DNA from: Spartobacteria bacterium LR76
GTDB lineage: Bacteria; Verrucomicrobiota; Verrucomicrobiia; Chthoniobacterales; Terrimicrobiaceae
DNA: 64,000 nt
Direction: 5' to 3'
Assembly (NCBI GenBank): GCA_003054655.1
Contig: QAYZ01000014.1
Coordinates: 248,001 to 312,000 of the forward strand
Position numbers and translations under genes: made by a program. The notes below the pieces were generated by a model, which saw nothing but the letters and a program-made list of their open reading frames with translations, was not told the DNA's origin and made no database searches. Below are positions 6,682 to 25,042 of the stretch, piece after piece; the first letter of the stretch is position 1, and each line of letters opens with the position of its first letter.

Positions 6682-9338
6682 AGATTCGTTCCCTCCTGTT
6701 TCTTTTCGTTTTTGTTGCTCCTGGTGCGATTCGCGCCGACAGCCCCTTGATCGTCGACTGGGGGCACGATTGGGGCGCCGGATGGTATCGGGAAACCACC
6801 GCTCTGGCCGGACAGCCTGCCCAGCGGATCGCCGAGATTGATATTAATGGCAATGGCCGGACGGACGATGACTACATCGGCGGCTGGCCGTTCTCGATGG
6901 ACAAGCCGTTGAGTCCCACCACGCTGGTTTATGACTACAGCCTGCCCTCCGCGACCTTCTATGGCGGAGCCGTGGTGCAGGTGACCGATATTCCGAACGG
7001 CGAAGACGGAAAGCCCCTGCGTCCCCGCGGAGCTACGGAGGGTCATATCAATCAGAATCATGAGTTGCGGGATGACTGGAACCTCATGGCCATGCCGTCA
7101 TCCAAGCGCGAGCCCGAGAAGGAGCGATTTGCCGGAGCCCTGCTCGTGCTCTGGAAAAAGGACGACTTTCTTAATGGAGGCGCGACGCACCGGGTCTCTT
7201 TTGAGCCGGGCGACATGATCGGGGTGTTTATCTCGCGATATTGGGGCGGCGTCGACTGGGGGCGCTGGGTGGTCAAGAGCGCCGGAAAGTACTATGTCTC
7301 GCGAGCCACTTTTGGAGACCAGACCAAGTCATTTGACCTCACCGGCGGCGAGGGAACGCCCAATGGCGCAAATAACCCTGTCGTTCGCAAGACGCACTAC
7401 CTCGATCCGACGCAGACGGAATGGGCGCTTTATGACCCGAAGCCCGGCTACGAGATATTCTTCCATGCCGATGAGGCGAAGTTTTCGAAAGTGGCGCTGG
7501 ATAATGTCGAGGCGGTCGGGTTCCTCGCGCAGCGAAACCTCGCGACCGGTCATCCGGTGGCGGAAGGATTATGGAAGCTCCCCCACGGGCTAGGGGAGTC
7601 CATCGCGCTGAAGTTCAACGCCGTCCAGGCGAGGGCCACCGTGCATGACCTGGGTCCGGGTTCGTCTCTGGTCGGGATGGTTCCGCTGGGAGGCGGCGCC
7701 TCATCTCCCCTGCTCTGGATGGCAAAGACGGAGACCTCCTACGCCCAGTGGCTGAAGGTTTGGCGATGGGCGGTGACCAACCAGCGGGCGGGCAATTTTC
7801 CCGCCGAGCACAAGGACAAGGAGATACCTGGATACTGTTTCATCCGGGACGGTGTGATGGGGAGCATGGAGCTGGCCGCCGATCGTGCGGTGACTCCGGA
7901 TGAACCCGTGACCGGCATCACCTGGCACGATGCGGTGCTCTGGTGCAATGCGCTCTCCGAGTCGGAGGGGCTCGTTCCCGCCTACTACGCAGACGCGGCG
8001 TTCACCCAGCCGCTGCGCTCCGGCATGGATCGCGCTCATCTGGAAAAGAGCGGGGAACGTCCGGCGGTCTACTGGAAGAAGGATGCCCCCGGATACCGCT
8101 TGCCCACAGCATCCGAATGGGCGTGGGCGGCCCAGGCGGGAGGCAATACCGCCGTGCCGCAGGGAGGAACCCCGGCGAACGGCACTTTTCCGGTCGCCTT
8201 GCAGCCGTTGAACGCATGGGGGCTTGCCGGCATGTCCTCCAATGTCGCGGAATATGTCTGGGATGCACGCGGGGATTCCTTCGATCCCGCCACGGAAAGG
8301 GTTCACGCTGTTCTCGGGGCCGGCTTTGCGAATGCGGAGAAATCCCTGATGCCGTTTGGCTCCGAACCTGCACGGGGCGCGTATGACATCGGATTCCGCG
8401 TGGTCCGGAATGGCGGCGGCGGGATTCCCGCAACCACGGCCGACGGACTCCAGCGGCAGGTTGCTGAGGGCGCTGTGTTGCCAGCGGCGTCCCCGATGTC
8501 TGTCCAGGATTTGCAGGCGCTGGCGCGCAAGACACTGCACCTGGCCGATGTTTCGGGTTCTCTGCCGGATAATAACAATCCCAACAAGGATTATCGGGGA
8601 GGGGAGGCCTATCCAGCCTCTCTTTCAGGGACCGAGATCCCTTACCGGCTCTGGATTCTCGTGCGCAACTGGGCGGAACAGGAAAAGGGGTATCGGTTCA
8701 ACTTTTCCGGCGACATGGGGAGCATGACATTCCCGTTATCGCCCGCCCCGACCTACACCCGTGATGAGCCGGTGACCAACATTGGCTGGCAGGACGCGGC
8801 GGTGTGGAGCAACGCGCTCTCCGAGTTGCTGGGACTCGCTCCGGTCTATGTCGATGAAGGGACGGGTGAGCCGGTAAGGCAAGCCTCGCCGTTTCGCGTG
8901 GCGATGTATCCGGAGTACCACTATCCCAACACCGGGAACTACGCTGGCAGGCCGCTGGATACGGCGGCTGTGATGAAATGGAAAACGGTCGCGACCAACA
9001 ACGGCTTCCGGCTGCCCACCGTGGCAGAGCTTGAGGCGGCCGAGCAGCCGCAGAAGTCCGGGGAGGCGGGATGGTTCTCGACCAACTCCGGGATGAAAAC
9101 CCATCCGGTCGGCACCCGGCAGCCAGGCAATACCGGGCTGTACGACATGCAGGGCAATGTCTCCGAGTGGACCTATGGAGGGGACAGCCTGTTTGGACAG
9201 GTGCGTTTCGGGAATAACTTCGCCTATCCTCCCGGAGTCAATCCGCACAGGATGAACTCCAAGGAGCATCCCGGGGTGGGACGTTCCTGGGTGGGCTTTC
9301 GGGTGATTCGCCGGGGCTCCGCTGCGTCGGAATCCTAG
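6678..9338 (+). CDS. Secreted protein with two formylglycine-generating-enzyme-like (SUMF1) domains
   Basis: 886 residues with a signal peptide of about 20. Residues 25-310 form a beta-rich domain with local resemblance to the PEP-CTERM protein at 11145-11978 (both begin IVDWG and share collinear motifs). Two SUMF1-type domains follow, at about 335-575 and 625-880. Each has the family pattern: a trytophan-Asp-Ala-Val/Ala-W-x-N-A-L-S segment, a GYRLPT or GFRLPT motif, an N-V-A/S-E-Y/W motif, and a final GFRVV/GFRVI. The cysteines expected in catalytic FGE are not evident, so it may be a binding or surface module and not a sulfatase-activating enzyme; no sulfatase lies nearby. It is coupled to the upstream glycosidase-like gene. 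Confidence 0.7.
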   Translation: MKIRSLLFLFVFVAPGAIRADSPLIVDWGHDWGAGWYRETTALAGQPAQRIAEIDINGNGRTDDDYIGGWPFSMDKPLSPTTLVYDYSLPSATFYGGAVVQVTDIPNGEDGKPLRPRGATEGHINQNHELRDDWNLMAMPSSKREPEKERFAGALLVLWKKDDFLNGGATHRVSFEPGDMIGVFISRYWGGVDWGRWVVKSAGKYYVSRATFGDQTKSFDLTGGEGTPNGANNPVVRKTHYLDPTQTEWALYDPKPGYEIFFHADEAKFSKVALDNVEAVGFLAQRNLATGHPVAEGLWKLPHGLGESIALKFNAVQARATVHDLGPGSSLVGMVPLGGGASSPLLWMAKTETSYAQWLKVWRWAVTNQRAGNFPAEHKDKEIPGYCFIRDGVMGSMELAADRAVTPDEPVTGITWHDAVLWCNALSESEGLVPAYYADAAFTQPLRSGMDRAHLEKSGERPAVYWKKDAPGYRLPTASEWAWAAQAGGNTAVPQGGTPANGTFPVALQPLNAWGLAGMSSNVAEYVWDARGDSFDPATERVHAVLGAGFANAEKSLMPFGSEPARGAYDIGFRVVRNGGGGIPATTADGLQRQVAEGAVLPAASPMSVQDLQALARKTLHLADVSGSLPDNNNPNKDYRGGEAYPASLSGTEIPYRLWILVRNWAEQEKGYRFNFSGDMGSMTFPLSPAPTYTRDEPVTNIGWQDAAVWSNALSELLGLAPVYVDEGTGEPVRQASPFRVAMYPEYHYPNTGNYAGRPLDTAAVMKWKTVATNNGFRLPTVAELEAAEQPQKSGEAGWFSTNSGMKTHPVGTRQPGNTGLYDMQGNVSEWTYGGDSLFGQVRFGNNFAYPPGVNPHRMNSKEHPGVGRSWVGFRVIRRGSAASES

Positions 9339-12087: not shown

Positions 12088-13161
12088 TCATGTCGCAATG
12101 CGCAGCTTGCGCAAAGTTGCGCCCGGAATTAGCACGGGAGGAACCAGCAGGCGAAGGGGGATCTCAGGCCGTCCCACGATTCCATGCTGGAGCTGCTGAT
12201 GAGCCAGGTCTACAGCCTGCCGACCTTGCTCGACCGGGCGCAGACTGATCTGGGAGCAATCGGGAAGCTCGGTGATATCCCGCAGGCAAAGAAACCCGAG
12301 CTCCTCCGGGATGCGCCACGAGCGAAGCCTGCGGTCGAAGTAATCACCTCCGGTTAGCCAGTAGTAAGGCTGGACGTTGGTGGAGATCACCACATCCGGT
12401 CGCTCCCGGCGAACCCAGGTGGCGAAGTCCCGTACGGAATCGTCGCTGGGTTCGTAGTGGTGGATGGCGGGTTGTGCCCCGAGAGTCCGGCCGAGCCGGT
12501 CGATCTCAAATAGCGCCTGGGCGTGAAAAGGGACATCCGTGCCGCTTGCCCGGTAGTTCATCAAGGCGATGCCGATCCGGCGATACCCGCGCGAGACGCA
12601 TGCCTGCACTCCCTGGTGCATGGCGGATCGAAAATCGGCCTGCACGGTGTGAACTCGCGCGAGATCGTTTTCCGGACCGACGAAGATCGTGAAAAAATGC
12701 TCCCAGTCCAGCTCGAGATTGATCCCATCGCGGAAAGCCTGGATGAGCACGCCGCGAATACCTCGGTGATAAATCACATGGCCGAGGGCTGCTGCAGTGG
12801 GGTAGTCGCCCAGGGAAAATTCATCGAGCTGATACCCCAGTTCGGCGGCCCGCTGCTGGGCGCCGACAAACTCCGGCGCAGGATGATTGGACGGAGGGAT
12901 CAACGGCTGGTGAATCCATGCCAGCGTCGCGGTCTGCGGTTTGGCACCAAGGGGCCAGCGGCGACGGGTCAGGGCTCCCAGCGACGGGTCGGGACGATAG
13001 CCCAGGCTATTCGCTGCCTGGAGGACTTTTTCCCGGGTTTTCTCCGCGACGTAACCCGTCCCTTGCAGTACGCGGCCCACGGTGGTTTTTCCGACGCCGC
13101 AGGCTTCTGCGATGCGGCGGTAATTCACCGGAGATGGGAGAGAGGATTTCTCCGTGTTCAT
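12088..13161 (-). CDS. LacI-family transcriptional regulator
   Basis: 357 residues. Residues 12-60 form the LacI helix-turn-helix and hinge (YRRIAEACGVGKTTVGRVLQG, followed by the REKVLQAANSLGYRPD hinge-helix entry). The rest is the periplasmic-binding-protein sensor. It probably controls the neighbouring PEP-CTERM and GH13 genes or the divergent pseudopilin cassette. A perfect palindrome sits 10 bases upstream of its start and may be its own operator. Confidence 0.9.
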   Translation of the reverse strand: MNTEKSSLPSPVNYRRIAEACGVGKTTVGRVLQGTGYVAEKTREKVLQAANSLGYRPDPSLGALTRRRWPLGAKPQTATLAWIHQPLIPPSNHPAPEFVGAQQRAAELGYQLDEFSLGDYPTAAALGHVIYHRGIRGVLIQAFRDGINLELDWEHFFTIFVGPENDLARVHTVQADFRSAMHQGVQACVSRGYRRIGIALMNYRASGTDVPFHAQALFEIDRLGRTLGAQPAIHHYEPSDDSVRDFATWVRRERPDVVISTNVQPYYWLTGGDYFDRRLRSWRIPEELGFLCLRDITELPDCSQISLRPVEQGRQAVDLAHQQLQHGIVGRPEIPLRLLVPPVLIPGATLRKLRIAT

Positions 13162-13170
13162 TAGGATTTA

Positions 13171-13184
13171 AAAGACTGGTCTTT
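13171..13184. promoter_or_regulatory. Palindrome upstream of LacI gene, putative operator
   Basis: AAAGACTGGTCTTT is a 14-bp sequence with perfect 6-bp arms, located between the divergent LacI gene and the pseudopilin cassette. Position and symmetry suggest autoregulation. The central TG is not the CG most common in LacI operators. Confidence 0.45.
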
Positions 13185-13338
13185 CGGGAGGACTGGCAAA
13201 TAGACTATACGATATTGCATTATGGGACAAGGCCCATATGGCGATGACTTCCCCCCGAGCCCGACGCAGAGTTTATTTCGCTTAGTCCCCCCCATGAGCA
13301 CTCTTTCTTTGCCTAGGACGCATCAAGGTCCGCTCGCG

Positions 13339-13974
13339 ATGAAACCACGCTGCCGACAGGCTGGCGCAGGCGGTTTTTCGCTGATGGAGCTGCTCGTCGT
13401 GATCGCTATCATCGGCCTCCTCGCGGCTGTCGCCTCCAGCGGTATGGGGGGCAGCGACGGCGCAAAGCTGAAGACCGCTCTGAGTGTGCTGATCTCCCAG
13501 GCGCAGGCTGCGCGCACTACCGCCATCGCAAAGAACGCGCCCACCCGCCTCCTGATTGACTCCGGGAATGATCGTGAGAACGGCCACAGGCTCATCGCGG
13601 TGGCGGTGGAGAATGCCGATGGCAGTTGGGAGATTGCAGGCACTCCGGCGTTGCTGCCTGACGGGGCGACATTTCTCGTCGGCGATGGCCTGTCGCCGTC
13701 CTCCACTGCGGGCGGCACCTCGGCTCCGCCGCCGACGATGGCGCTCGATTTTCGCAATCAGCACAGGACCTGGTACTACCTTGAGTTTGATCCGGAGGGA
13801 ACCTGCGAGGAAAATGCCGGAGCGATTCTCGTCCTCGGCCTGGGCCGGCATACCGGTACGGAGTGGGTGAGAAAGAATCCCGACCTGCTTCAGGCGGCGA
13901 TGATTCGTCGTTCGGGGCAGGTCAGCGCATTTTCTGACCCGGCGCACATCCGGGATGCTTTTAGGGCCTTATGA
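13339..13974 (+). CDS. Verru_Chthon cassette protein D-like / GspH-like pseudopilin
   Basis: 211 residues from the ATG at 13339; an in-frame ATG at 13294 would add 15 residues. The N-terminus AGGFSLMELLVVIAII is a class III (prepilin) signal: cleavage after Gly, Phe at +1, Glu at +5, then a hydrophobic helix. The next region (ISQAQAARTTAIAKNAPTRLL) matches the GspH-like pattern of prepilins that carry a long helix with AxxxRxxAxxxN. It is the first of six genes joined by overlaps of 0-8 bases. It is inferred to be a minor pseudopilin of a verrucomicrobial cassette known as Verru_Chthon (proteins A-D). Confidence 0.75.
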   Translation: MKPRCRQAGAGGFSLMELLVVIAIIGLLAAVASSGMGGSDGAKLKTALSVLISQAQAARTTAIAKNAPTRLLIDSGNDRENGHRLIAVAVENADGSWEIAGTPALLPDGATFLVGDGLSPSSTAGGTSAPPPTMALDFRNQHRTWYYLEFDPEGTCEENAGAILVLGLGRHTGTEWVRKNPDLLQAAMIRRSGQVSAFSDPAHIRDAFRAL

Positions 13975-14495
13975 TTTTCGGACGGCATGTGGCACGGGGG
14001 TTTTCCCTGGTCGAAGTGGTGCTCGCGATCGGCATCTTTGCGTTTGTCGTGGTGGCGGTGATGGGATTGTTTGGCAGTGCTCTGGGCGGCGTGCGTGATG
14101 TCGTGGATCGCGATGGCATGGTCGCTGTCGCGGACTCGGCGGTCGAGCAAGTGTCGATGCTCTCCCGGGCGGAGATCGCCGCGGTTCCCGCCGGGACCAA
14201 CCTATTGGCTTCCGGTCGACCGCTGCTCTATGGCTATCTCGGTACGGCACCCGGCCAGACCAACAGCCTCACCTGGACGAATGTCTCCCCGCCCATCACC
14301 AGCGTACAAAGCGGGAGGGTCTATCGAGTGGCGCTTTACCGGGCCAATGTGGATGCCTCCACCGAGGCGACGTTTGCGCAGACGAATGCGAGTTATCCCG
14401 TGCGCATGGAGATTGCGGTCCTCGCAGCCGGGCAGTCATCGCCCCGTCCAGCCATGAACTGGACGTTTCATCGGAACCTTCAACCCCGCGAATGA
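13971..14495 (+). CDS. Verru_Chthon cassette protein B-like / GspI-like pseudopilin
   Basis: 174 residues. ARGFSLVEVVLAIGIFAF at residues 8-25 is a prepilin peptidase site followed by the transmembrane helix. The start ATG overlaps the stop of the preceding pseudopilin (ATGA at 13971-13974), so translation is coupled. Short length and helix register resemble GspI, one of the three tip pseudopilins of type II secretion systems. The remaining body has no recognised catalytic motif. Confidence 0.75.
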   Translation: MIFGRHVARGFSLVEVVLAIGIFAFVVVAVMGLFGSALGGVRDVVDRDGMVAVADSAVEQVSMLSRAEIAAVPAGTNLLASGRPLLYGYLGTAPGQTNSLTWTNVSPPITSVQSGRVYRVALYRANVDASTEATFAQTNASYPVRMEIAVLAAGQSSPRPAMNWTFHRNLQPRE

Positions 14496-15364
14496 GGACC
14501 GTACATTTCAGGCAAGGCTGGTCGTTATCAGCCGGTTTGCGCCGTCCGGGCTTCACCTTGATCGAACTGCTTGTGGCGACCGCGGTCATGACGATCGTGC
14601 TCGTGCTGTCGGTGCAGGTCGTCACCGCGAGCCTGAACCAGTGGGGGCTGGCCAATGACCGCATGACAGCCAACATGCAGGCGCGGCTCGCGCTCGACTG
14701 GATATCGCGAGACATCCAGACCATCATCGTGAGCGGGGATGACTCGGAGTGGCTCCGCATCGCGCCGATTTCCGTGACGGGCGGGAGCGGAGGATCGATC
14801 GATGGCTCCCGGCTGATGATCTTCTGCCAGCCGGGGGAACGTCCCAAGGATCCTGCCAACTCCTCCACGCGGATCACCGGCCCGATCGCCGTCTCGTACA
14901 TGATGGGCTATCTCGATCCCATGGTCTCCGGAGGGAGCAGGAAAAACTTCGCCCTCCTCAGGACGGCAATCAATCCGCGCGATACGTTTGAGAACATGGC
15001 GGTGGCCAACCTGGAAACGGACTTCTGGGCTGCGGGCGTGCTGGGGTTCACCACGGTGAGGCCGGAGGATATCGTTGCGGAGAATGTCGTGGCCTTTCAG
15101 GTGATCGCGGAGTTTGTCGACGAGATAAACGACGCCACTCATCGCAGCGATCCGGCGGAGGGATTTTCCGTTGGCCCCGACGGGGTGATCCGCTCCGGCT
15201 CGCAGACATTCCCTCACGCCCGGCTCCAGGCTGTCGAGGTATCTCTCCGGCTGTTGAAGCCGAAGGTCGCAGCGAGATTGAACGGTCTCAGCGGTCAGGC
15301 TTGGCAGGATGCCATTGCATCGAGCGAGGTGTTTTCCAAGCGCATACCGATTTTCGCACCATGA
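14492..15364 (+). CDS. Verru_Chthon cassette protein C-like / GspJ-like pseudopilin
   Basis: 290 residues. RPGFTLIELLVATAVMTI (about residues 19-36) is the prepilin site and helix. The following stretch (ANMQARLALDWISRDIQT) matches the GspJ pattern of a helix ending in L-x-x-x-x-R-D-I. A late segment on RLQAVEVSLRLLKPK also fits the GspJ-type C-terminal strand. It is coupled by ATGA overlaps to the genes on both sides (14492-14495 and 15361-15364). Confidence 0.75.
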   Translation: MRTVHFRQGWSLSAGLRRPGFTLIELLVATAVMTIVLVLSVQVVTASLNQWGLANDRMTANMQARLALDWISRDIQTIIVSGDDSEWLRIAPISVTGGSGGSIDGSRLMIFCQPGERPKDPANSSTRITGPIAVSYMMGYLDPMVSGGSRKNFALLRTAINPRDTFENMAVANLETDFWAAGVLGFTTVRPEDIVAENVVAFQVIAEFVDEINDATHRSDPAEGFSVGPDGVIRSGSQTFPHARLQAVEVSLRLLKPKVAARLNGLSGQAWQDAIASSEVFSKRIPIFAP

Positions 15365-18015
15365 GAGTCTTTTCCTTGTTAGCATTCCTGGTGTTGGCCA
15401 TCCCTCCGGCGATGGCGGATACGCCATTGTCCCTGAAGGGCGTTGCCACCGTCGGTCTCGACGATGCGGTCGCGGCGGATGGAGTGGGAGGGTGGACCGA
15501 CGAGGGGCCGGAGAACTCGCTTCAGGGATTTCCCACCGGGCAGCAGACATTCCTCGGAGTGCCGTTCGACATACCGCGCGATGGTCCGGCTGTCCTCGCT
15601 CTGCCGGGAAAGGCCTGGCCGAAGGCATCCCCGACCGTGACCGTACCGGCGAATGGTTCCATGGGAAAGACGCTGTTTGTTCTTTCCGCTCATGCCTGGG
15701 ATGATCCGCCGTCCGAGCTGGCGACCGTTACGGTTGCTTATGAGGATGGGAAGGAAGAACGCTTCTCTTTTGTCCAGGATGCCCAGACCGGGCCTTGGTG
15801 GTATCCCTTGAGCCGCAACCAATCCCGCGTGGCATGGCGCGGGGAGAATCGTTCGGGAGTGCCCGTCGGCGTCTATCTGGCTGGGCTGGAGCTGACGCGA
15901 CCCGGCACGCCGGTGCGGTCGGTCGTTCTCGAAGGTTCTCCCGTGCGCGGGCAGCTTTTGATCCTCGGCCTCACTCTGTCGAATCAGCCCGCCATGCTGG
16001 CATTTGCCCCTCCCGCGTGGGCAGAGGAGCCATCCGACACGGCTGGATGGTTCGAGCCTGCGCACGCCGATGCGGAGTCTGGCACTGCTCCTGTCTGGGG
16101 CGCAGCGGCAGACGGGGCGCAGACCGGGCGGGTGTTAATGATGGAGTTTGGCCAGAGCCTGAGCGCTCCGGAACAAAAGCAGGCGGAGCAGGCCGTGCGG
16201 GCGCTGAAAGATATGGGATACACGGGTGTAAGGACTGCTCCCATCGATCCGCTGATCGCTAAGCCTGCCAGCGACACGCTGCGGACGGGGTTGAGGAATC
16301 TCCTGGCCGAGTGCGAGAAGCAAGGGCTGGCTGTATCTGTCACCCTGGCCGGCGGGCGTGTCTATCATGCCGACGAGGGGGTGGCGGCTTTTCGGGAGCT
16401 GAATATCGGCTATCCCGAGTATTATTTCGTCGATGAGGCGGCCACCGCTTTGCTGGAGCGCGATCTGGGGGATTTCTGGCAGTCGGTCGGAACCTCGGCG
16501 CGGATGGAGCCAAGCGCCATATTATTTGAGGGAGGATTGTTCGGATATCATCAGGACTTTCTTACCCGTCCGCACCATCGCATGCTGCAAAATCGCTGGT
16601 GTGCCTGGCTCAAGCAGCGTTACGGGTCGGGAGAAGAGCTGAAGGAGATCTGGCAGATGCCGGGGGAGGCCAGCCCGCTGTATCCCGACGAGAGCCTGGA
16701 GCGCGGTCGAGTCGAATTCCTCAGCACCAGCAACCTCCTCGCTGCCTCGCCCCGTTTTCGCCGACGGATCGCCGATCAGCTCCGCTTTCTTGAGCAGTTC
16801 CAGTCCGACTGGTTCCTGGCCCGGCGGGCTGCGGCGGAAAAAATCCTCCCTCCTGCGAAATGGAGCGCCACCGCCTGGACCTCTCCGGCTTGGCTGCGCG
16901 ACCTGCAGACCCGTACCGCTGCCAGCCTCGACGTGATCGAGGAGCGCGCCGAGCTCGTAGAGACCGGCACGATGTCGGACCCCGAGCGAGCGCTCTATCT
17001 GGATGTCTCACCCATCTCGGAGGCGTCGCTGGCGACTTTCAGGACGCCTTTTCAGCGGGTGGAGGGAAAGCCTTTCATCGTCTGGGATGCCATCGGCGCC
17101 TGGCCGGGAGATCGGAATTTCGTGCGGGTGCTCCGTACCTTGGCGGTTGGGGCCATCCAGGGTTGGGACGGGGTGTTGCACCGCCAGCTCGACCGGTTTC
17201 CCGAGGATGGAGCGCCTATGAGCGATGTTCCGCTGCCGGGACGTGCTTTGCAAAACCCCTCCGTGCTGGCTGTCCTTCCGCTGGGGCGCAATCTCTTCCT
17301 GCGTGGCGATCTTGGCGAAGCTCCGCTGGTTCTCCGCCGGAGGCTGGTTTCGCCGGACGACATCGCTACGGCAACGCAGGTGATTCCTGCGGGCGGCAAT
17401 GGCCTGCCTGGCTGGCTGGCCTTTAGCGGCAAGGTCGTGGCCCGGCTGGACTCCGGCGAACTGGCCAGATCACAGGATGCTCCTCCTGACGGAAAGGTCT
17501 CCACGCCGGACCGGTCGTTGGAGATCGATATGCCGGCGGATCACATGCGTATCTCGACCGCGAGATCCATCGCCCTGGCGGGTTCGCTTTCGAAGGGGGA
17601 GTTTGACGATGCCTCAGTCAGTGTGCGGGTGGTCGACGGATATGGCGTGATCTACGTCACCGCGCTCGACGGCCAGCCCATCCCGACCTCGCGGAAACTA
17701 CTCCTGGGATTGGTCGGGCGCTCGCGCAATACCGGCCAGACCGCTGACCGCAGTACGGAACCTCGCGGGGTGCATCCCACGGTCTGGAGCATCCGTAGTC
17801 CCGGAGTCGGTCCTGTCATCATGGAACCGATACGCGCGTCCCTGACCATCAAGAATGGTCTGGCGGGCAGTTGGACTCTTCTCGGTGTGGACTCCCGGGG
17901 CCTTCCCTTGCCAGCGAAACCCCGGATGCTCAAGCCGGTGTCCAGTGGCGACCTGACCCTGGACATAGACACCGCTGAAGCTCGCACGCCGCTTTTCCTG
18001 CTGACCCATGAATAA
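15361..18015 (+). CDS. Secreted glycosidase-like exoprotein embedded in the pseudopilin cassette
   Basis: 884 residues from the ATG at 15361, chosen because it gives a signal peptide (MRVFSLLAFLVLAIPPAMA) and an ATGA overlap with the upstream gene. Residues 20-240 are beta-rich. From about 260 a TIM-barrel-like region begins (RALKDMGYTGVRTAPIDP), continuing to about 610, as in clan-A beta-galactosidase-like enzymes. The C-terminal 250 residues are again beta-rich. I cannot assign a GH family or identify the two catalytic acids with confidence. It overlaps the next gene by 8 bases. Its place between the J-like and K-like pseudopilin genes suggests it is exported or displayed by that machinery (inference). 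Confidence 0.55.
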   Translation: MRVFSLLAFLVLAIPPAMADTPLSLKGVATVGLDDAVAADGVGGWTDEGPENSLQGFPTGQQTFLGVPFDIPRDGPAVLALPGKAWPKASPTVTVPANGSMGKTLFVLSAHAWDDPPSELATVTVAYEDGKEERFSFVQDAQTGPWWYPLSRNQSRVAWRGENRSGVPVGVYLAGLELTRPGTPVRSVVLEGSPVRGQLLILGLTLSNQPAMLAFAPPAWAEEPSDTAGWFEPAHADAESGTAPVWGAAADGAQTGRVLMMEFGQSLSAPEQKQAEQAVRALKDMGYTGVRTAPIDPLIAKPASDTLRTGLRNLLAECEKQGLAVSVTLAGGRVYHADEGVAAFRELNIGYPEYYFVDEAATALLERDLGDFWQSVGTSARMEPSAILFEGGLFGYHQDFLTRPHHRMLQNRWCAWLKQRYGSGEELKEIWQMPGEASPLYPDESLERGRVEFLSTSNLLAASPRFRRRIADQLRFLEQFQSDWFLARRAAAEKILPPAKWSATAWTSPAWLRDLQTRTAASLDVIEERAELVETGTMSDPERALYLDVSPISEASLATFRTPFQRVEGKPFIVWDAIGAWPGDRNFVRVLRTLAVGAIQGWDGVLHRQLDRFPEDGAPMSDVPLPGRALQNPSVLAVLPLGRNLFLRGDLGEAPLVLRRRLVSPDDIATATQVIPAGGNGLPGWLAFSGKVVARLDSGELARSQDAPPDGKVSTPDRSLEIDMPADHMRISTARSIALAGSLSKGEFDDASVSVRVVDGYGVIYVTALDGQPIPTSRKLLLGLVGRSRNTGQTADRSTEPRGVHPTVWSIRSPGVGPVIMEPIRASLTIKNGLAGSWTLLGVDSRGLPLPAKPRMLKPVSSGDLTLDIDTAEARTPLFLLTHE

Positions 18016-21000
18016 GATCAAACAGAGAGGATTTGCCACCATACTGGCGCTGCTGGTCATCGCCTTGCTCGTGGTGGTGCTGGTCGGCGCGGCGATCTTT
18101 GTGCGGGTGGAGACTCTCACGTCCTCCAACGCCAAGAAAGCCGCCGAGGCGCGTCGAAATGCCATCTTCGGTCTCGAAAATGCGATCACCCTTCTCCAAG
18201 AAACCGCCGGGCCCGACCAGCGGGTCACGGCCCCGGCCGAGTTGAATCGAAACACCAGCACATCCACCTGGGAGCCGGCTTTTCTTCCGGGAGCAAGCAC
18301 CAACACCGCGGCGCAGACTCCCGCTCGCAACTGGAGCGGCGTGTGGGATGCCTCCCGCAATCGCTACATCCCAGACTCCGCCAAGCCGGGCCGCGTCGTT
18401 TCCAATGTCGGCTCCTCGGCATCCCAGGTGTCGCCCGAGCCTCTCGCCTGGCTCATCTCCGGGGGGCGCAGAAAAAACGGCGGAGCGGAGTCGCAAACGA
18501 ACAATGTGACGCCGCTCAGCTATCCCGCCCGCCTGACCTCGGCTGGGAAGATCACGGGTGTGGCCGATCTCGATGCTCATGTCGTATTGCTCGGCGGCGG
18601 TTCCGTCGACCTGGCCGGCGATCAGGCGGAGGGTGTCGTCGTGCCCAAGGTGTCGATTTGGAACCCGGCGTCTTCCCAGCCCGGCGTCGCCGCCGGAGCT
18701 TACGCGTTCTGGGTTGGCGACGAGGGAACGAAAGCGAAGTTTCAGGCCGGCGCGGAGTTCTCCTCGCTCGGCCATACCTTCTCCGGGGCGTCGCTCGACC
18801 AGGTCCGCCTGGCGTCTTCGCAGAAACTCGGCATCGGTGCGGTTGAGGGTACGGTGACGAATCACGATCTCGCCACGGATGGCTACGATCCGTCGGCCCC
18901 GGGCTTTGCTGCAAGCCTGCTGCGACTCTCCGCGGATTCCCAGGTGAACTACCTGCCGGACGGCGACAAGCTGGGCGCGGATTTCAAGCGCCGCTTCCAT
19001 GACCTCACCCTTTATGCAAAAGGCGTGCTCGCCGATGTGAAAAAGGGCGGTCTCAAGGAGGACCTCTCGGTCTATCTGGGGAGTGGAAACATCTCGGGCT
19101 CCATCAGCGATACCGACCTGCTTTACGAAGACCCCAGGGATGCCGGGACGGCGGCTGATGATCCGAGGTCGCCCTTTAGGACCAGATTCCCCGGATTTCA
19201 TCCCACGTCCAACTCCAATCTACCGCGGATGGGGCTCCTTCGTACATGGAATGGTATTGACATTTCCAATCCGCAGATCGCGCCGAGGACAGATACGCAG
19301 CATGGACTCTTCCCGGTCATCACCCGGTGCGAATGGCCTGCGTGGCTGCACTTTGATCTCCCGACCGCATCCGCCTATCCGCAGACGATCCCGGCAAATT
19401 CCGGCCAGGTGCGGCTGAGATTTCATCCCGTCATCACGCTCTACAATCCCTATAACGTCAGGCTGCCGGGCGTGTCCTACATCATTCGCATCCGCGTCGA
19501 TGACGACGCCCTCTTCGAGCTTCTGGCCGATCCGCCGAATACAACGAATGTCAGCGGGGTGATGAAGTTCGACGTGAATGCGAGCCTGCTGGCCGCCAAT
19601 ACCGCGACGCAGGACGCCGCCATTTACCTGAGGATTCCCGCCTCCGAGAGTTCGCTGCCTCCCGGTGCCTCGAAGGTATTCACCCTGCAAAACAGCGGAG
19701 CCCTCCAGCAGGTCATGGATATGGTCTGCGATTTCAGCCAGGTGAATCAGCAATTTGGCGACAAGACAAACGTCAAGAACCCCTCGCCATCGGTGATCAA
19801 TCAGAACGGCTACTTTGAAGTTCCGGCCCTGCCCGATGGAAGCACACCCCTCCAGATCACCGCGGCACCGACGGTTGCCACTTCGTTTCGCATGAGGTTT
19901 TACGGTACCGCGCCCTCGACGCCTTCCGATCCGTTGAGTTATGCTGACGCCCCAAGAGGAGTCACGCTGCACAAGGCATCCTCTGTTTCCGATCTCGGCC
20001 AGCCCTTGCAGATCATCTCCAACTGGCCCATGGGTATAGGCTGGCTGGCCAACTCGACCGCCGCCACCCTGGGGCTTTCCTTCAGTGCCGGTCAATTCCA
20101 GCGTCAGGTGCAAGTCGATACCCGCATGCCTGTCGGCCAGTTTCACCGCCGTCCGCTGGTTCATCGCTCGACCAACGGGGGAGGGCCTCAGGGAGGATTT
20201 CTCGCCGGTTATCTGTACTCCAATATGCGCTCGGGAGGCGAATTCTCCACCCCGTCCCGCTTCGGTGTCGGGGTTTCGGGAGCCAGTGCGAACAATCTGA
20301 TCAAATGGTACGGCAACTGGGTGAATTTTACCGATGGCACCACCGGAGTGAACAACACGGCGTACGCTCCGCCCCAGATTCGCTATGCGGGGGGCGATTT
20401 TCTCGAGTCGCTCTTTTACAATTACGAGGATCAGAATCCTGCGGTAAAGCCGTCCGGCCTGACCAGCGGCGCATTTTCCTGGAGCCAGTTGGGATACGAG
20501 AACCCGGCCTTTGATTTCGCGCCTCCCGACGGGCTGGGCAGTCTGGGCTGGCTCCAGCATGCGGACCTGTCGGGGCATGGCAACCAGCCATCGTATATTT
20601 TTGGAAACTCCTGGGTGTATGCTCCATTGGCCGGACGCGATTGTTATGCCGGGTTTTATAACTACAGCAATTCCTCCTATGTGGAGTACTTCAACAGGTA
20701 CCCCGCTCCCAAGCCTGCCAATAGCTCCCAGGACCGGTTCAACCTCATCTACGACGCCTCCTACATGGCCAACGATGCGCTGTGGGATCGCTTCTTCCTG
20801 AGCGGTCTGACAGGCACTGGTGCCGTCTCCCAAGGCTACCTGGACAATGAAAAGGCGCTTCCGAATAGCAGGCTTCGCTTCCGAAGCACCCTGGGCGGAG
20901 ACTACAATGCCCTCGGGACTCCCGCGAACCGTTTCAAGCTGGGGGCCGCCTATCTGTTGACAGATGGCGCTTTCAACGTGAACTCCACCTCGGTCGAAGC

Positions 21001-21880
21001 CTGGAAAGCCGTGCTGGCATCGCGGCTGGGACTCAAGGTGAACAATGCCACCGCAAATGCAGACCAGGCTGTCTTCAGTCGTCTTTTAAAACCGGGCAAC
21101 GGTGCGGGAGGGTTTCTCGTTCCTCCGAGCAATCAACCTGCGGGGGAACTGGCCGAGGCCTACACCGGAGCCCGCCGCCTCTCGGAACAGGAGGTCGATC
21201 TGCTGGCTCGCGAAATCGTCGCGGAGGTCAGGGAGCGCGGACCCTTTGTCTCGATGGCCGACTTCGTCAATCGCCGTCTCACCCCCGAGTTGAGCGCCTC
21301 ACCCTTCACGGAGACAGCCCTTTCCCGTACCGGCCTGCGAGGCGCGCTGCAGGCGGCCATCGATCGAAGCAGCCTTCAGACCGTCGCGGGAAAGCCAGCC
21401 ATCAATGGGGCGTTTTATGATTCCGGCACCGAGGGATCGTTCTACACCCCGGCGCAAATGCGGACCTACGTCGGCGATCCGCGGACCGATGTGAATGTGG
21501 ATGATTCCTCCCTCCAGGGAGCCGTGGTGCCCCGGCTGGCCATGTTTGGGGAGGAGTGGTACTATACTGCCGCGGGAGTGCCTGGCTTCCTGACGCAGGC
21601 GGACGTGCTCCAGGCGCTGGCTCCGATCCTGACTGTTCGGAGCGATACCTTTCGCGTTCGAGCCTACGGGGAGGTGAAGAATCCCCGCACCGGACGCATC
21701 GAGGCCCGGGCCTGGTGCGAGGCGATCGTGCAGAGATATCCCGAGCCTTTTAAGAAATCGACTGATCCCGAGGATCTCGCCTGGCCGGAGCGGCCAGCCA
21801 ATGCGGGAGACCCCGCGGCGTCACTGGGAAGGCTGTTCCGGATCATTGCTTTTCGATGGCTCACTCCCGAGGAGGTTTAG
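18008..21880 (+). CDS. Verru_Chthon cassette protein A-like / GspK-like giant pseudopilin
   Basis: 1290 residues. The N-terminus KQRGFATILALLVIALLVVV is a prepilin-like site without Glu at +5, as in GspK and PilX. The segment AEARRNAIFGLENAITLLQETAGPDQRVTA is the signature of Verru_Chthon protein A. Near the C-terminus, SEQEVDLLAREIVAEVRERG and SMADFVNRRL resemble the small helical insertion of GspK, and DTFRVRAYGEVKNPRTGRIE followed by AWCEAIVQR is another family hallmark. The large middle is beta-rich and Asn/Ser/Gly-rich, suitable for the outside of the cell. It is expected to cap a pseudopilus formed with the B, C and D-like proteins. Confidence 0.8.
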   Translation: MNKIKQRGFATILALLVIALLVVVLVGAAIFVRVETLTSSNAKKAAEARRNAIFGLENAITLLQETAGPDQRVTAPAELNRNTSTSTWEPAFLPGASTNTAAQTPARNWSGVWDASRNRYIPDSAKPGRVVSNVGSSASQVSPEPLAWLISGGRRKNGGAESQTNNVTPLSYPARLTSAGKITGVADLDAHVVLLGGGSVDLAGDQAEGVVVPKVSIWNPASSQPGVAAGAYAFWVGDEGTKAKFQAGAEFSSLGHTFSGASLDQVRLASSQKLGIGAVEGTVTNHDLATDGYDPSAPGFAASLLRLSADSQVNYLPDGDKLGADFKRRFHDLTLYAKGVLADVKKGGLKEDLSVYLGSGNISGSISDTDLLYEDPRDAGTAADDPRSPFRTRFPGFHPTSNSNLPRMGLLRTWNGIDISNPQIAPRTDTQHGLFPVITRCEWPAWLHFDLPTASAYPQTIPANSGQVRLRFHPVITLYNPYNVRLPGVSYIIRIRVDDDALFELLADPPNTTNVSGVMKFDVNASLLAANTATQDAAIYLRIPASESSLPPGASKVFTLQNSGALQQVMDMVCDFSQVNQQFGDKTNVKNPSPSVINQNGYFEVPALPDGSTPLQITAAPTVATSFRMRFYGTAPSTPSDPLSYADAPRGVTLHKASSVSDLGQPLQIISNWPMGIGWLANSTAATLGLSFSAGQFQRQVQVDTRMPVGQFHRRPLVHRSTNGGGPQGGFLAGYLYSNMRSGGEFSTPSRFGVGVSGASANNLIKWYGNWVNFTDGTTGVNNTAYAPPQIRYAGGDFLESLFYNYEDQNPAVKPSGLTSGAFSWSQLGYENPAFDFAPPDGLGSLGWLQHADLSGHGNQPSYIFGNSWVYAPLAGRDCYAGFYNYSNSSYVEYFNRYPAPKPANSSQDRFNLIYDASYMANDALWDRFFLSGLTGTGAVSQGYLDNEKALPNSRLRFRSTLGGDYNALGTPANRFKLGAAYLLTDGAFNVNSTSVEAWKAVLASRLGLKVNNATANADQAVFSRLLKPGNGAGGFLVPPSNQPAGELAEAYTGARRLSEQEVDLLAREIVAEVRERGPFVSMADFVNRRLTPELSASPFTETALSRTGLRGALQAAIDRSSLQTVAGKPAINGAFYDSGTEGSFYTPAQMRTYVGDPRTDVNVDDSSLQGAVVPRLAMFGEEWYYTAAGVPGFLTQADVLQALAPILTVRSDTFRVRAYGEVKNPRTGRIEARAWCEAIVQRYPEPFKKSTDPEDLAWPERPANAGDPAASLGRLFRIIAFRWLTPEEV

Positions 21881-22633
21881 ATGAAGGTGCGATATTATAT
21901 TCCCGTTTTTGCCCTGGCGTTGCTGCATCCCATGGCGGTGCTTCTGGCTCAACAGTCTCCTGTCGAGCCGCAGACGATATTTACCGTGCTGTTGATTGAT
22001 CGCCCGACCACGGAGGCGGAATCCGCCGGGGCGGAGGGAACGGTAAAATCCCTGGACCCCACGGTGTACTATCGCGCTCCGACCGTTCGCGGCGGCGGGG
22101 ATGTGTCTTTTCTGCCCCTGGTGCTTCCCGTGAACCGGCCCGCCAATCCGGTCGCGCTTCCAAAGGGACAGCCGCTGGAACTCTTTTCCAAGCCGTCGGC
22201 GGATGCCAGGATCACCTCGATCTCTCCGTCCGCCGGATCAGCGGTCACCATCCTGCTGCGCGCCTCGCGGGACAAAGGATTTGTCAATGCAAAGACCACG
22301 GTGCTGAACACGGAGGAGACGGCCTTTCCCTTTGGTACGATGAGAGTCATCAATGCGAGTGATCGTCCGGTTTCCTTGAAGAATATTGACTCCTCCGTAG
22401 TGATCGAACCTGGCGAAACACGCAACATTTCCCCGGCGCGAGCCCGGCGGGATAATGTGCCGTTCTCCGTCGCGGTGCAGGACGGCATCTGGAAGGAGAT
22501 AGACTCCAGTTCGATAAAGCTTCCCGCAGATCAGCGCGCGACCTTGCTGATCACCTCCGCCGCCGACGCCCGGCAGCGGACGCATTACGATGTCGTCGCC
22601 CTCATCGACGTGCGCCGGGACCCTGTGCCGTAG
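21881..22633 (+). CDS. Exported protein of unknown function closing the pseudopilin cassette
   Basis: 250 residues. An N-terminal signal peptide of about 23 residues ends near LLAQ. The rest is beta-rich, with no motif I recognise. Its ATG directly follows the stop of the protein A gene, and GGAGG at 21871-21875 is one of the best Shine-Dalgarno sequences in the window, so it belongs to the cassette. It ends 2 bases from the convergent transporter gene. A role in assembly or as an accessory surface protein is a guess from position only. Confidence 0.7.
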   Translation: MKVRYYIPVFALALLHPMAVLLAQQSPVEPQTIFTVLLIDRPTTEAESAGAEGTVKSLDPTVYYRAPTVRGGGDVSFLPLVLPVNRPANPVALPKGQPLELFSKPSADARITSISPSAGSAVTILLRASRDKGFVNAKTTVLNTEETAFPFGTMRVINASDRPVSLKNIDSSVVIEPGETRNISPARARRDNVPFSVAVQDGIWKEIDSSSIKLPADQRATLLITSAADARQRTHYDVVALIDVRRDPVP

Positions 22634-22635
22634 GG

Positions 22636-24048
22636 TCAGGCTTCCGCCGGGCGTTTCTTTTCCAGTTCAGCGCGGATTTCCTCGCACCGCTCCCGGGTCA
22701 GTGGCCATCCACGAATGGCGAAAAGCGCCAGCAGGCTCCCCACGGCCGGGATGAGGCTGAAACTCACCCTCATGGCAAAGAACACACCGTCGGCTTGATT
22801 TGCGCCATTTCCGATGTGGAAGCCGGTCCATACCACGACCCAGCCGGACAGAATGATGGCCAGCGAGCCGCCCATCTTCATGACCCATCCTCCGATGGCA
22901 CCGAACATTCCCTCCCTCCGCCTGCCCGAGTACAGCTCATCCAGATCGACGACATCCGCCTGCATCGCGGACATCACGATGTAGATCGAGGAGATTCCGA
23001 TCGAGAAAAAGAAGGGCAGGACAAGCTGCATCCACGGATGGGCGGGATCGATGCACCACCACTTCAGGATGCTCCCGGCGACATAGAGCCAGAGCGCAAC
23101 CACCAGGGCCCGGTGTTTCCCGAAGCGGTCGCAGAGATACTTCGTCAGCGGGATCGCCAGGGCGGAAAGCACCAACCCCAGCGTGCCCACCACCCCGCCC
23201 AGCGTGGCTCCGGCCGCCTTGTCTCCGCCGTAAACAAAGTAGACATTCAGGTACATGCCGAGTGCGGTAAATACGCCGGTGTTCAGCGTGAGGATGGTCC
23301 AGATGGCAAGGAGCCTCAGGTACACCCGGTTGGACAGGACGGAGCCGATGGTTTTCCAGAAATTCTCCGGCAGATTCCGCGCTGCGGCGACCGTCTTGTA
23401 TCTGTGCTCGCGGTTCTGCGTTACCAGGGCAATGGTCGATGCGATGCCAAACACCGCGACAAGCCCGGCTATCCAGCGCGCACCGACCAGGGCATTGGCA
23501 AACAGCTCCGTAAAGCGAAAGTACCAGTTGCTGAAGATGGCGAAGACCTTGTCCCCGAGACTTCGGTATGCGACCACCCGCGTTCGTTGATCATAATCGG
23601 TCCCCATTTCGATCCCGAGGGCATAGTAGGGCACGCTGATGATAGTGGTGGCCGTGTTAAAGAGCAGCAGCACCACGCCGAACCAGATCAGGATCGACGT
23701 GCTGTTCCAGTCGGTGCCGCACCAGTAGAATAACCCAATGCAGGCCATGCTCAGCACACCGCCGACAAGGATAAACGGCATGCGACGCCCGAATCGCGTC
23801 CGCGTATTGTCCGAGACCTGGCCCATCACCGGATCGATCAGGGCGTCCCATAGGCGCACGATTCCCGCGATCGTTCCGATCATTCCGGGATTCACCCCCA
23901 GCAGCATGTTGAAAATGGGAAACTGGAGGCTCTGAATCAGGCCGTTTCCCATGACCACGGCGAAGTTGCCCAGCGTGTAAAATATCAGCTCACGCCGTGC
24001 GGGGGGCGCGTCGGCATGGGCTTTGGGCGGCTCGGTGGTCGAGGGCAT
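22636..24048 (-). CDS. GPH-family sugar:cation symporter (MelB-like MFS)
   Basis: 470 residues with about 12 hydrophobic helices. SDNTRTRFGRRMPFI between helices 2 and 3 is the characteristic loop of glycoside-pentoside-hexuronide:cation symporters, and WDALIDPVMGQ in helix 2 carries the conserved Asp. It should import a sugar or glycoside across the inner membrane together with Na+ or H+. It lies 48 bases after the deacetylase gene on the same strand, probably one transcript. Confidence 0.85.
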   Translation of the reverse strand: MPSTTEPPKAHADAPPARRELIFYTLGNFAVVMGNGLIQSLQFPIFNMLLGVNPGMIGTIAGIVRLWDALIDPVMGQVSDNTRTRFGRRMPFILVGGVLSMACIGLFYWCGTDWNSTSILIWFGVVLLLFNTATTIISVPYYALGIEMGTDYDQRTRVVAYRSLGDKVFAIFSNWYFRFTELFANALVGARWIAGLVAVFGIASTIALVTQNREHRYKTVAAARNLPENFWKTIGSVLSNRVYLRLLAIWTILTLNTGVFTALGMYLNVYFVYGGDKAAGATLGGVVGTLGLVLSALAIPLTKYLCDRFGKHRALVVALWLYVAGSILKWWCIDPAHPWMQLVLPFFFSIGISSIYIVMSAMQADVVDLDELYSGRRREGMFGAIGGWVMKMGGSLAIILSGWVVVWTGFHIGNGANQADGVFFAMRVSFSLIPAVGSLLALFAIRGWPLTRERCEEIRAELEKKRPAEA

Positions 24049-24096: not shown

Positions 24097-24918
24097 CTAG
24101 AAATCCATCGATTCTCCCGGGAGCAAACGGATTTCGCGGCCATTGAACGTGAAAAAGACTGGTGTGGCGGAAGGATTGTGAGCGCGACCAAGATCAAGCG
24201 ACCAAAGTACCCCGCGCCATGCGGTGATATAGTCATAGACTTGGCGATGGGTCGCAAACCATAGCCCGTCCTGCCGCGCAGCGTCCCGGAGAAAGTCTTC
24301 GATATGCTGCCACCCCCACGTCTCCTCAAACTCATAGCTGTGCCCCCAGATGTTGAAGAGGCGATCGGGCTCCCGCCGTGTCTTGAAGAACTCCCATTGC
24401 TCGGCGAGTTCGGAACCGCAGTGACACGATGTATCCCAGTTGAAGAAGTCCGCCGGAGGCTCCTGGACCTTGGCCGGCGAAGATCGACGTGCATACAGGA
24501 ACCCCGCGCGCTTTGCCAGCGGCAGCATGGCATCTCCCGATTCCCCTCGACCAAAAGGGAAGACAAATCCCGTGACGATCTCCCCTGCGATAGCTTCCAG
24601 AGCCTGCCGATCATGGACCATCTCGGAAAAGATCACCTCCGGTGGGAGCGTCCAAAGGCGGGGATGAGTGACGGTGTGGGAGCCGACTTCAAATCCCTTG
24701 TAAAGGGTCCGCACCTCCTCCGAGGAGATGCATCGGGAATCACCGTCCTCCCGATCGCAAAAACGATCACTGCAGAGATAGAACGAGCCCTTGAACCCAT
24801 ACTCCCGGAAGAGCTGCACCATCCGGCGGTCATGGACAGTGCCATCGTCCCAGCTTGAGGTTACCGTTCCGGTTAGAAAGCTAGGCCATCGGAATTGAAT
24901 GCTGGGCAGGCGGGACAT
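24097..24918 (-). CDS. Polysaccharide deacetylase (NodB-like, CE4)
   Basis: 273 residues from the ATG at 24918; a GTG at 24930 is the alternative start. SSWDDGTV (Asp24-Asp25) gives the catalytic base and metal-binding Asp of the NodB fold, and GSHTVTHPRL gives the metal-binding histidines His81 and His85. FVFPFGRG and FNIWGHSYEF correspond to later NodB motifs. No signal peptide is seen, so it may act on imported acetylated sugars. It is upstream of the GPH symporter in the same direction, which supports joint use of an acetylated saccharide. Confidence 0.8.
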   Translation of the reverse strand: MSRLPSIQFRWPSFLTGTVTSSWDDGTVHDRRMVQLFREYGFKGSFYLCSDRFCDREDGDSRCISSEEVRTLYKGFEVGSHTVTHPRLWTLPPEVIFSEMVHDRQALEAIAGEIVTGFVFPFGRGESGDAMLPLAKRAGFLYARRSSPAKVQEPPADFFNWDTSCHCGSELAEQWEFFKTRREPDRLFNIWGHSYEFEETWGWQHIEDFLRDAARQDGLWFATHRQVYDYITAWRGVLWSLDLGRAHNPSATPVFFTFNGREIRLLPGESMDF

Positions 24919-25042
24919 GGTGGTACTCACTCAACTCACTCCCACATTTTCGCAAGGAAGCCCAAACCTCAGAACATGGAACCTGTCCCTCACGGTATCA
25001 ATACAGAGATTAGCCGGAGAATTTCCGTACGGAGATGGGAGC

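Follow-up and report, generated by a model that had tools for sequence, protein, structure and literature searches.

A predicted minor-pseudopilin operon with a giant modular GspK and a recurrent secreted partner gene in Spartobacteria bacterium LR76

The window analyzed here is a 64,000-nucleotide stretch of contig QAYZ01000014.1 from Spartobacteria bacterium LR76, and it contains six + strand genes, here named D, B, C, X1, A and X2, that appear to make up an orphan minor-pseudopilin operon arranged in the H-I-J-K order of the type II secretion system (T2SS), with a K subunit that is modular. We are highly confident that protein A is a GspK carrying a large inserted module, an assignment based on a structural model and on sequence motifs. 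There is also good reason to regard the small secreted protein encoded directly behind it, X2, as a functional partner of A. The reading as a whole, in which the operon encodes a swappable filament tip linked to a sugar locus, has in our view about an even chance of being correct.

Results

Layout of the six genes

The open reading frames (ORFs) lie at 13339-13974 (D), 13971-14495 (B), 14492-15364 (C), 15361-18015 (X1), 18008-21880 (A) and 21881-22633 (X2), and consecutive genes overlap by 4, 4, 4, 8 and 0 bases. Prepilin motifs with glutamate at position +5 are found in D (GFSLMELL), B (GFSLVEVV) and C (GFTLIELL), all three of which pass the Pfam N_methyl cut-off, and A has a prepilin-like motif, GFATILALL, without this glutamate. 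The tight packing and the four prepilin-type N-termini, the last of them lacking the glutamate, are as the original prediction for this DNA had described them. X1 and X2 begin with hydrophobic leaders that, read by eye, resemble Sec-type signal peptides. In a sister genome (locus L024, of which L036 is a duplicate), the counterparts of C, X1, A and X2 are 87-92% identical to those of the window, and D and B have strong matches; since all six genes are retained there, the set is not a chance array of ORFs. In the alignment with L024, the sister ortholog of D has ATA in place of the ATG at 13339 and retains an upstream ATG, and for this reason 13294 is the more likely start of D.

Protein A as a giant modular GspK

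Protein A (18008..21880, + strand) is 1290 residues long. An AlphaFold model of residues 91-1290, built from a 65-row alignment, reached a mean per-residue confidence (pLDDT) of 67 and a predicted template modeling score (pTM) of 0.79. In a second look with VIA-align, the top four rows were all GspK or XcpX chains, namely 6utu_C (Z 7.2, 205 residues aligned at 3.6 Å), 9a1f_T (Z 7.2), 5vtm_X (Z 6.9) and 3ci0_K (Z 6.4), and the next row stood at Z 3.2. At the sequence level, the N-terminus of A matches the NCBIfam GspK model at 23.2 bits (cut-off 130), and a search against PDB chains gave nothing significant, the best being a geopilin N-terminus at E 0.83. We also compared profiles with hhalign, using GspK sequences of under 480 amino acids (aa) from 32 loci. 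The whole A profile scored 90.6, a match that convinces chiefly in the N-terminal helix, and residues 960-1290 scored 78.9 (E 1.6e-5 for one comparison), the best printed score among 20 column-shuffled decoys of this C-terminus being 0.8. The DEGxK region aligned in the correct order but weakly, at 2.6.

Compact relatives of A delimit the inserted module. A profile of A (A2) matched 194 of 288 genomes of the phylum, most only weakly, and some matches, in frames of 426-502 aa and in one case 629, cover both profile ends. Of these compact A genes, nine were examined (L227-L233, L240 and L241; 411-446 aa), each of which lies behind pilin-type genes, and in the clearest of these loci motif and position give the order pilin, pilin, H, I, J, K. 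Seven compact relatives were aligned with window A and none covers residues 361-980, whereas compact and window A share GxxNINT..VWR, VRSDTFRIRAYGEA, EAIVQR and RRF...FRWLGP. Because the compact relatives keep both ends and do without residues ~361-980, A is best read as a GspK with a module of about 620 residues inserted (19088..20947, + strand). The GspK parts that it retains are the N-terminal helix, DEGxK, NxNT, RGPF..DF and the SDTFxIRxYG...EAIVQR...FRWL end. Across 64 long A proteins, window A included, the insert measures 484-723 aa with a median of 609. A therefore has the feature by which modular pilins are recognized, an extra domain on a pilin moiety. The proposal that A corresponds to GspK thus agrees with the model, which aligns best with solved GspK and XcpX chains, with the compact relatives and with the motifs.

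X2 recurs directly behind A

X2 (21881..22633, + strand) belongs to no family in Pfam or NCBIfam. Its AlphaFold model (pLDDT 87.7) is a predicted tandem beta-sandwich that lies nearest to the extracellular domains of PepT transporters (Z 11.8-14.1; PepT2, 5a9i_A, at 12.3), with single-domain matches to HGSNAT (Z 9.3-10), the AlgF C-domain (6d10, Z 9.1) and, lower, beta-sandwiches such as transthyretin (6.7). The PepT and AlgF domains share 12-16% identity with X2, which points to a common fold and carries no functional inference.

A profile grown from X2 matched 74 ORFs in loci from the A scan and from relatives. With the duplicate L036 left out, 59 of 92 A genes are directly followed by X2 on the same strand, at -224 to +140 bases. 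Room for X2 existed in 28 of the remaining 33, and over-extended ORF starts may hide some copies. In the order-level set, A was found in 9 of 213 genomes and X2 in 11, with both in seven. Two of these A matches are partial (G050 and G204), and four of the X2 matches, at E 4e-4 to 1e-3, are probably due to chance. Across the phylum, where the A and X2 scans scored at most nine and at most two candidates per genome and so report presence rather than counts, 50 of the 288 genomes have X2. Every one of these also has A at E <= 3e-27, and the nine compact-A genomes are not among them. Sixty-six genomes have A at E <= 1e-40, and the 17 of them without X2 comprise eleven from one genus (g47 of family f15), five with compact A and one (G415) with partial matches. 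This genus is itself mixed, as eight of its genomes have an X2 match, and one of its loci (L236) has a weak X2 match behind A (E 1.5e-4). Around the nine compact A genes, the search at E <= 0.01 detected no X2, whereas L234 and L243 have the same operon as the compact-A loci but with a long A and an X2.

In the original prediction X2 was cargo of the cassette, a role at odds with its recurrence with A across the phylum and its absence beside the nine compact A genes. One of the two genes that had seemed extra would instead be a recurrent partner. X2 may bind or stabilize the module, since it usually accompanies an A that bears the module and none was detected next to an A that lacks it.

Two further observations concern these loci. 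Two and three copies of X2 stand behind a single A gene at L029:6051-7566 and L109:13622-16299, respectively. The g47 loci L236-L239, which belong to the family of Roseibacillus, come from genomes of 2.2-3.5 Mb and have long A relatives scoring about 600 bits.

D, B and C as GspH-, GspI- and GspJ-like subunits

None of D, B, C and A reaches the NCBIfam equivalog cut-offs for GspH, GspI, GspJ and GspK, and the GspK of the T2SS-like operon encoded elsewhere in this genome is likewise below its own (68.2 against 130). D (13294..13974, + strand) scores 34.7 bits with GspH TIGR01708 (cut-off 80) and 38.7 with XpsH, also below cut-off; B (13971..14495, + strand) scores 28.8 bits with GspI TIGR01707 over residues 10-87 (cut-off 44.35); and C (14492..15364, + strand) scores 15.9 bits with NCBIfam GspJ (cut-off 64.85). 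Profile-profile comparison, from which D of L025 (no motif) was omitted and which used GspJ sequences of 150-330 aa and GspI sequences of 85-200 aa, separated C most clearly: J ranks first over 75 N-terminal columns with 96.7, followed by I at 52.8 and H at 41.6. B is a tie between J (66.0) and I (64.7), with probabilities of 96.5 and 96.9, and D is a near tie among H, I and J at 51-52. With the pilin helix removed, only the match of C to J remains visible, at a probability of 4.3. From rank, order and size we infer that C, B and D are the J-, I- and H-like subunits. The proposed pairing of C with GspJ is thus supported by the profile ranking, and the pairings of B with GspI and of D with GspH are weak.

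X1 is GH5-like and probably non-catalytic

X1 (15361..18015, + strand) is predicted to be secreted. Taken alone it matched nothing in Pfam, NCBIfam or PDB, but relatives of part of it, mostly of its N-terminal 200 residues, occur in 71 of 288 phylum genomes, and this N-terminal domain is common to many Verrucomicrobiota proteins. The relatives match PF00150 weakly (best 3.4e-5), and the X1-family profile matches mannanases of glycoside hydrolase (GH) family 5 in PDB (8gf3_A, 5.3e-8). The R-x-HH, NE, [TS]E[FW] and HxYxxHP motifs are kept in all 11 aligned relatives, whereas X1 and its sister ortholog have RTAP, no NE, VWD and no HxYxxHP at these sites. The GH5 acid/base NE and nucleophile Glu are therefore missing from X1, although a 4-residue alignment gap makes the acid/base site less sure. 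Judged by these residues, X1 is probably non-catalytic and possibly a sugar-binding protein. Among the loci examined, only those of the window species and its sister have a gene of this kind between C and A. The idea that X1 is cargo finds no support in a lineage-limited, GH5-like and probably inactive protein, although X1 could still be cargo.

Relation to Verru_Chthon cassettes and other giant K proteins

The window set had been described as a Verru_Chthon cassette. Like those cassettes it has four adjacent pilin-type genes, although X1 stands between C and A, and the TIGR02600 model for Verru_Chthon A, at 1296 positions, is close in length to window A. However, a hidden Markov model search with the NCBIfam models put all four proteins below the curated cut-offs: 36.2 bits for D against TIGR02596 (cut-off 70), 25 for B against TIGR02598 (51.4), 39.9 for C against TIGR02599 (256.5) and 15 for A against TIGR02600 (332.3), these matches being weak and mostly N-terminal. 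Because all four scores are too low, the name is too strong for this set, and by these scores D, B, C and A are relatives of the Verru_Chthon families and not members.

The TIGR02600 search of the window genome (G000, 4.75 Mb) gave 23 rows, which we read as 22 proteins. Eleven exceed the cut-off, ten at 833-1020 bits and the eleventh split into rows of 561 and 393. Ten further giant K proteins, in open frames of 1112-1415 aa, have partial matches only, nine of them at the N-terminus, and the 22nd is window A. All-against-all BLAST sorted the 22 into three families, namely the 11 true Verru_Chthon A proteins, a second family of ten with ends such as TWNLLIDLVAQ...RFTGE, and window A alone, which has no BLAST match to the other 21 at E <= 1e-3.

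In the other 21 cassettes of this genome, B, C and D were assigned by N-terminal motif and length. The 11 TIGR02600 cassettes show the order B-C-D-A in five, B-C-A-D in three (one B being a fragment only) and D-B-C-A in one, with one split and one A standing alone. In the second family the order is D-B-C-A in seven of ten (one D without a recognized motif), and in nine of ten loci a secreted protein of 217-294 aa is encoded directly behind the giant K gene. Random order and many cassettes without an extra gene, which according to the original prediction would speak against it, are thus partly found among the TIGR02600 cassettes but not in the second family. The nine partner genes lie at L172:45-749, L174:831-1529, L181:11515-12294, L183:10715-11512, L184:2044-2928, L185:3204-3905, L186:12071-12817, L187:11243-11896 and L188:10816-11502. 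Their products resemble one another by BLAST, and the eight that were scanned gave no convincing Pfam match. A sequence relationship to X2 was ruled out, with hmmsearch E values of 0.087 or more. A giant K with its own small secreted partner is therefore seen in two sequence-unrelated families.

Giant K proteins can be numerous. At E <= 1e-3, A2 matched 38, 26, 30, 29, 21, 36, 19, 19, 12, 16 and 25 times in eleven named genomes; fragments or members of other giant-K families are counted in these totals, as is seen from the sister genome, which has 25 matches but in which protein searches found one A and one X2. Among the matches listed, those over 680 bits number at least 29 in the genome of L037 and, as full-length matches for the family of window A, at least 23 in a Cerasicoccus frondis isolate and at least eight in the complete chromosome CP120722. 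An explanation of the giant K proteins would account for an appreciable part of the surface or secretion genes of Verrucomicrobiota, and it could link filaments to polysaccharide use.

Secretion machinery and known tip complexes

Among the window neighbors scanned, none of the GspC-G and GspL-M machinery was found. A T2SS-like operon lies elsewhere in the genome (C9:28-39k). Its GspG exceeds the cut-off, whereas H, I, K, M, D and E are recognized below theirs and J and L are placed by position only; the frame scanned for GspF gave no family match. PF00437 ATPases match at eight places in the genome.

The set resembles the T2SS minor pseudopilins GspH-I-J-K (XcpU-V-W-X) in gene order, D-B-C-A corresponding to H-I-J-K, in its prepilin N-termini, in a K without the glutamate at +5, and in the core fold and motifs of A. 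It differs in the size of window A, 1290 aa with a module of ~620 aa, and in the added partner X2. According to two reports, the T2SS tip complex is capped by GspK, in which an inserted domain is already present (PMC7248040, PMC6211770). The modular pilins PilB and PilC of Streptococcus sanguinis, which include a glycan-binding lectin module, are reported to form a pilus-tip complex (PMC9934059). The likeness lies in a module grafted on a pilin moiety and in a tip complex; the difference is that PilB and PilC carry a lectin or von Willebrand factor A (vWA) module on the type 4 pilus of a monoderm, whereas the window module is inserted inside GspK. In a verrucomicrobial alginate degrader, a pseudopilin is over-expressed on alginate, and a PulG-like pseudopilin gene of an alginate cluster has 67 homologues in that genome, neither of the two being A (PMC13274419). 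A further paper reports pilins and pseudopilins as enriched in two Verrucomicrobiae populations. The name "Verru_Chthon", and "Kiritimatiell" together with "pseudopilin", retrieved no papers in the open library, and under the words used no title or abstract opening there dealt with these cassettes.

Genomic context and regulators

The operon is flanked by sugar-related genes. A LacI-family regulator is divergently transcribed upstream (12088..13161, - strand; PF00356, 50.7 bits), and downstream lie an MFS_2 sugar transporter (22636..24048, - strand; PF13347, 211 bits) and a polysaccharide deacetylase (24097..24930, - strand; PF01522, 58.5 bits). Beside the same operon are also an AraC regulator, PIG-L, a glucosamine-6-phosphate isomerase-like gene, a GlcNAc 2-epimerase, and GH20 and GH13 genes. 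The divergent regulator, the transporter and the deacetylase together suggest a tip that is induced by a carbohydrate. The putative control region between the regulator and D (13162..13293) holds a near-palindrome, AAAGACTGGTCTTT, at 13171-13184. It is conserved in the sister genome, but about 0.5 such sites are expected by chance on a rough estimate, and as an operator it was rejected as not beyond chance.

The genome has 50 LacI genes. Of 21 giant-K genes (the one on short contig C15 was omitted), 11 have a LacI gene no more than 8 kb away, against 3.7 expected (P 0.0004; 0 of 5000 rotations), and 12 have one within 10 kb, against 4.3 expected (0 of 5000 rotations). Neighbor tallies covered 106 of 135 cassette neighbors and 106 of 181 control proteins from this genome, and 107 of 360 cross-species proteins, chosen manually or according to size and a random draw. 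Pfam found Peripla_BP_3 in 12, LacI in 10 and AraC-type HTH in 4-5 of the cassette neighbors, together with acetyl xylan esterase and deacetylase in three each and several lyases and GHs in two each. None of these regulators is among the 25 families listed for the controls, in which GH43 occurs in two.

Several side observations belong here. The genome has 96 prepilin-motif matches, and several single pilin genes lie ~1-2 kb from a LacI gene; because of these the LacI link may extend beyond cassettes. In the window itself, a short pilin-like frame at 33586-34188, which starts MFILVALLFSGIKVI, adjoins a second LacI gene (about 34361).

Discussion

On the reading that we favor, the four pilin-type proteins D, B, C and A would assemble into a tip complex of the H-I-J-K kind, which we consider likely, on a filament powered by T2SS machinery encoded elsewhere. 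The A module would be displayed at the filament tip and presumably exposed at the surface, X2 would bind or stabilize it, and X1 may add sugar binding in the window lineage. The tip would be made when one carbohydrate is present and would grip that carbohydrate or deliver its enzymes; the link to a carbohydrate is somewhat less probable than not. We advance more tentatively the proposal that Verrucomicrobiota hold an expandable repertoire of swappable tips, each with a giant GspK that carries a large insert and often has a dedicated secreted partner gene. It is similarly doubtful that these number dozens per genome and serve, under sugar-responsive regulators, as substrate-specific grapples or dispensers. 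If true, the repertoire would be a filament-based counterpart of the surface glycan-binding systems of Bacteroidota. Cassettes of the Verru_Chthon type would gain a testable identity as minor-pseudopilin tips with a modular GspK.

A number of observations weigh against this reading. The model of A has a mean pLDDT of only 67, and Foldseek with that model alone gave no match at E <= 0.001. The insert has a mean majority-residue fraction of 0.37 (0.33-0.34 over residues 361-835), and the N- and C-terminal parts of A have 0.39 and 0.52, respectively. Only in comparison with the C-terminal core is the insert thus clearly more variable, and it is barely less conserved than the N-terminal part. Because residues ~631-830 were modeled mostly at pLDDT 28-45, the module has no assigned binding fold. 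Long A proteins without a detectable adjacent X2 exist (L242 and L237-L239), and most A-X2 pairs stand apart from any B, C and D: 11 of 78 loci had a pilin-like ORF no more than 8 kb away, and in several of these its motif is doubtful. With regard to regulation, four distance thresholds were tried, and the LacI excess is absent at 3 kb (3 of 21 against 2.0 expected, P 0.33) and marginal at 5 kb (6 of 21 against 2.7, P 0.037, rotation 0.053). In other species the neighbors of A are mixed, with Peripla_BP_3 in 5 of 107, HisG in 4 and housekeeping genes. A phylum-wide LacI association was accordingly rejected, as a pattern search, itself too strict, found LacI in 1 of 78 loci and Pfam found Peripla_BP_3 in the 5 of 107 neighbors just mentioned.

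This mixed neighborhood is what would be expected of a general surface fibre or adhesin tip that serves attachment, predation or biofilm formation without sugar specificity, the LacI context being incidental to accessory regions that contain many sugar genes. Such a tip would also suit the generic folds involved, namely the weak fibronectin type III (FnIII)-like rows over A residues 436-687 (model residues 346-597; Z 2-2.8) and the beta-sandwiches of X2. We think it unlikely in view of the excess of LacI and Peripla_BP_3 in the genome itself and the sugar genes that neighbor the window operon. A dedicated exporter, in which the tip complex recognizes a secreted enzyme in the periplasm, with the A module and X2 selecting the cargo instead of facing outward as binders, and pushes it through the secretin, is possible, though we would not expect it. 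The capping role of GspK described above, the T2SS-like operon in this genome and the polysaccharide-active enzymes near its cassettes all fit an exporter, but that operon already has its own H, I and K, plus J by position, and it is X2, not any enzyme family, that recurs strongly beside A elsewhere, the top family among the 107 of 360 cross-species neighbors scanned reaching five. The cargo version put forward in the original prediction, in which X1 and X2 are both exported by the cassette, draws on their Sec-type leaders and on the GH5-like family of X1; it is very improbable, given that X2 follows A across the phylum and is not found beside module-less A, and that X1, among the loci examined, holds its position in the window species and its sister alone. 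We therefore retain the sugar-linked filament tip as the working interpretation.

Some neighboring genes deserve mention in their own right. Proteins that start with autotransporter-like W...NW repeats, recognized by eye, are encoded beside several cassettes at L177:4185-6002, L176:5755-7590, L184:8583-11240 and L173:17031-18353, and Pfam PATR was found in 2 of the 106 neighbors from the window genome. Elsewhere in the window, positions 6678-9338 encode a secreted protein of 886 aa with a sulfatase-modifying-factor-like domain (PF03781, 110 bits), and beside it positions 5140-6681 encode a 513-aa protein without an assignment.

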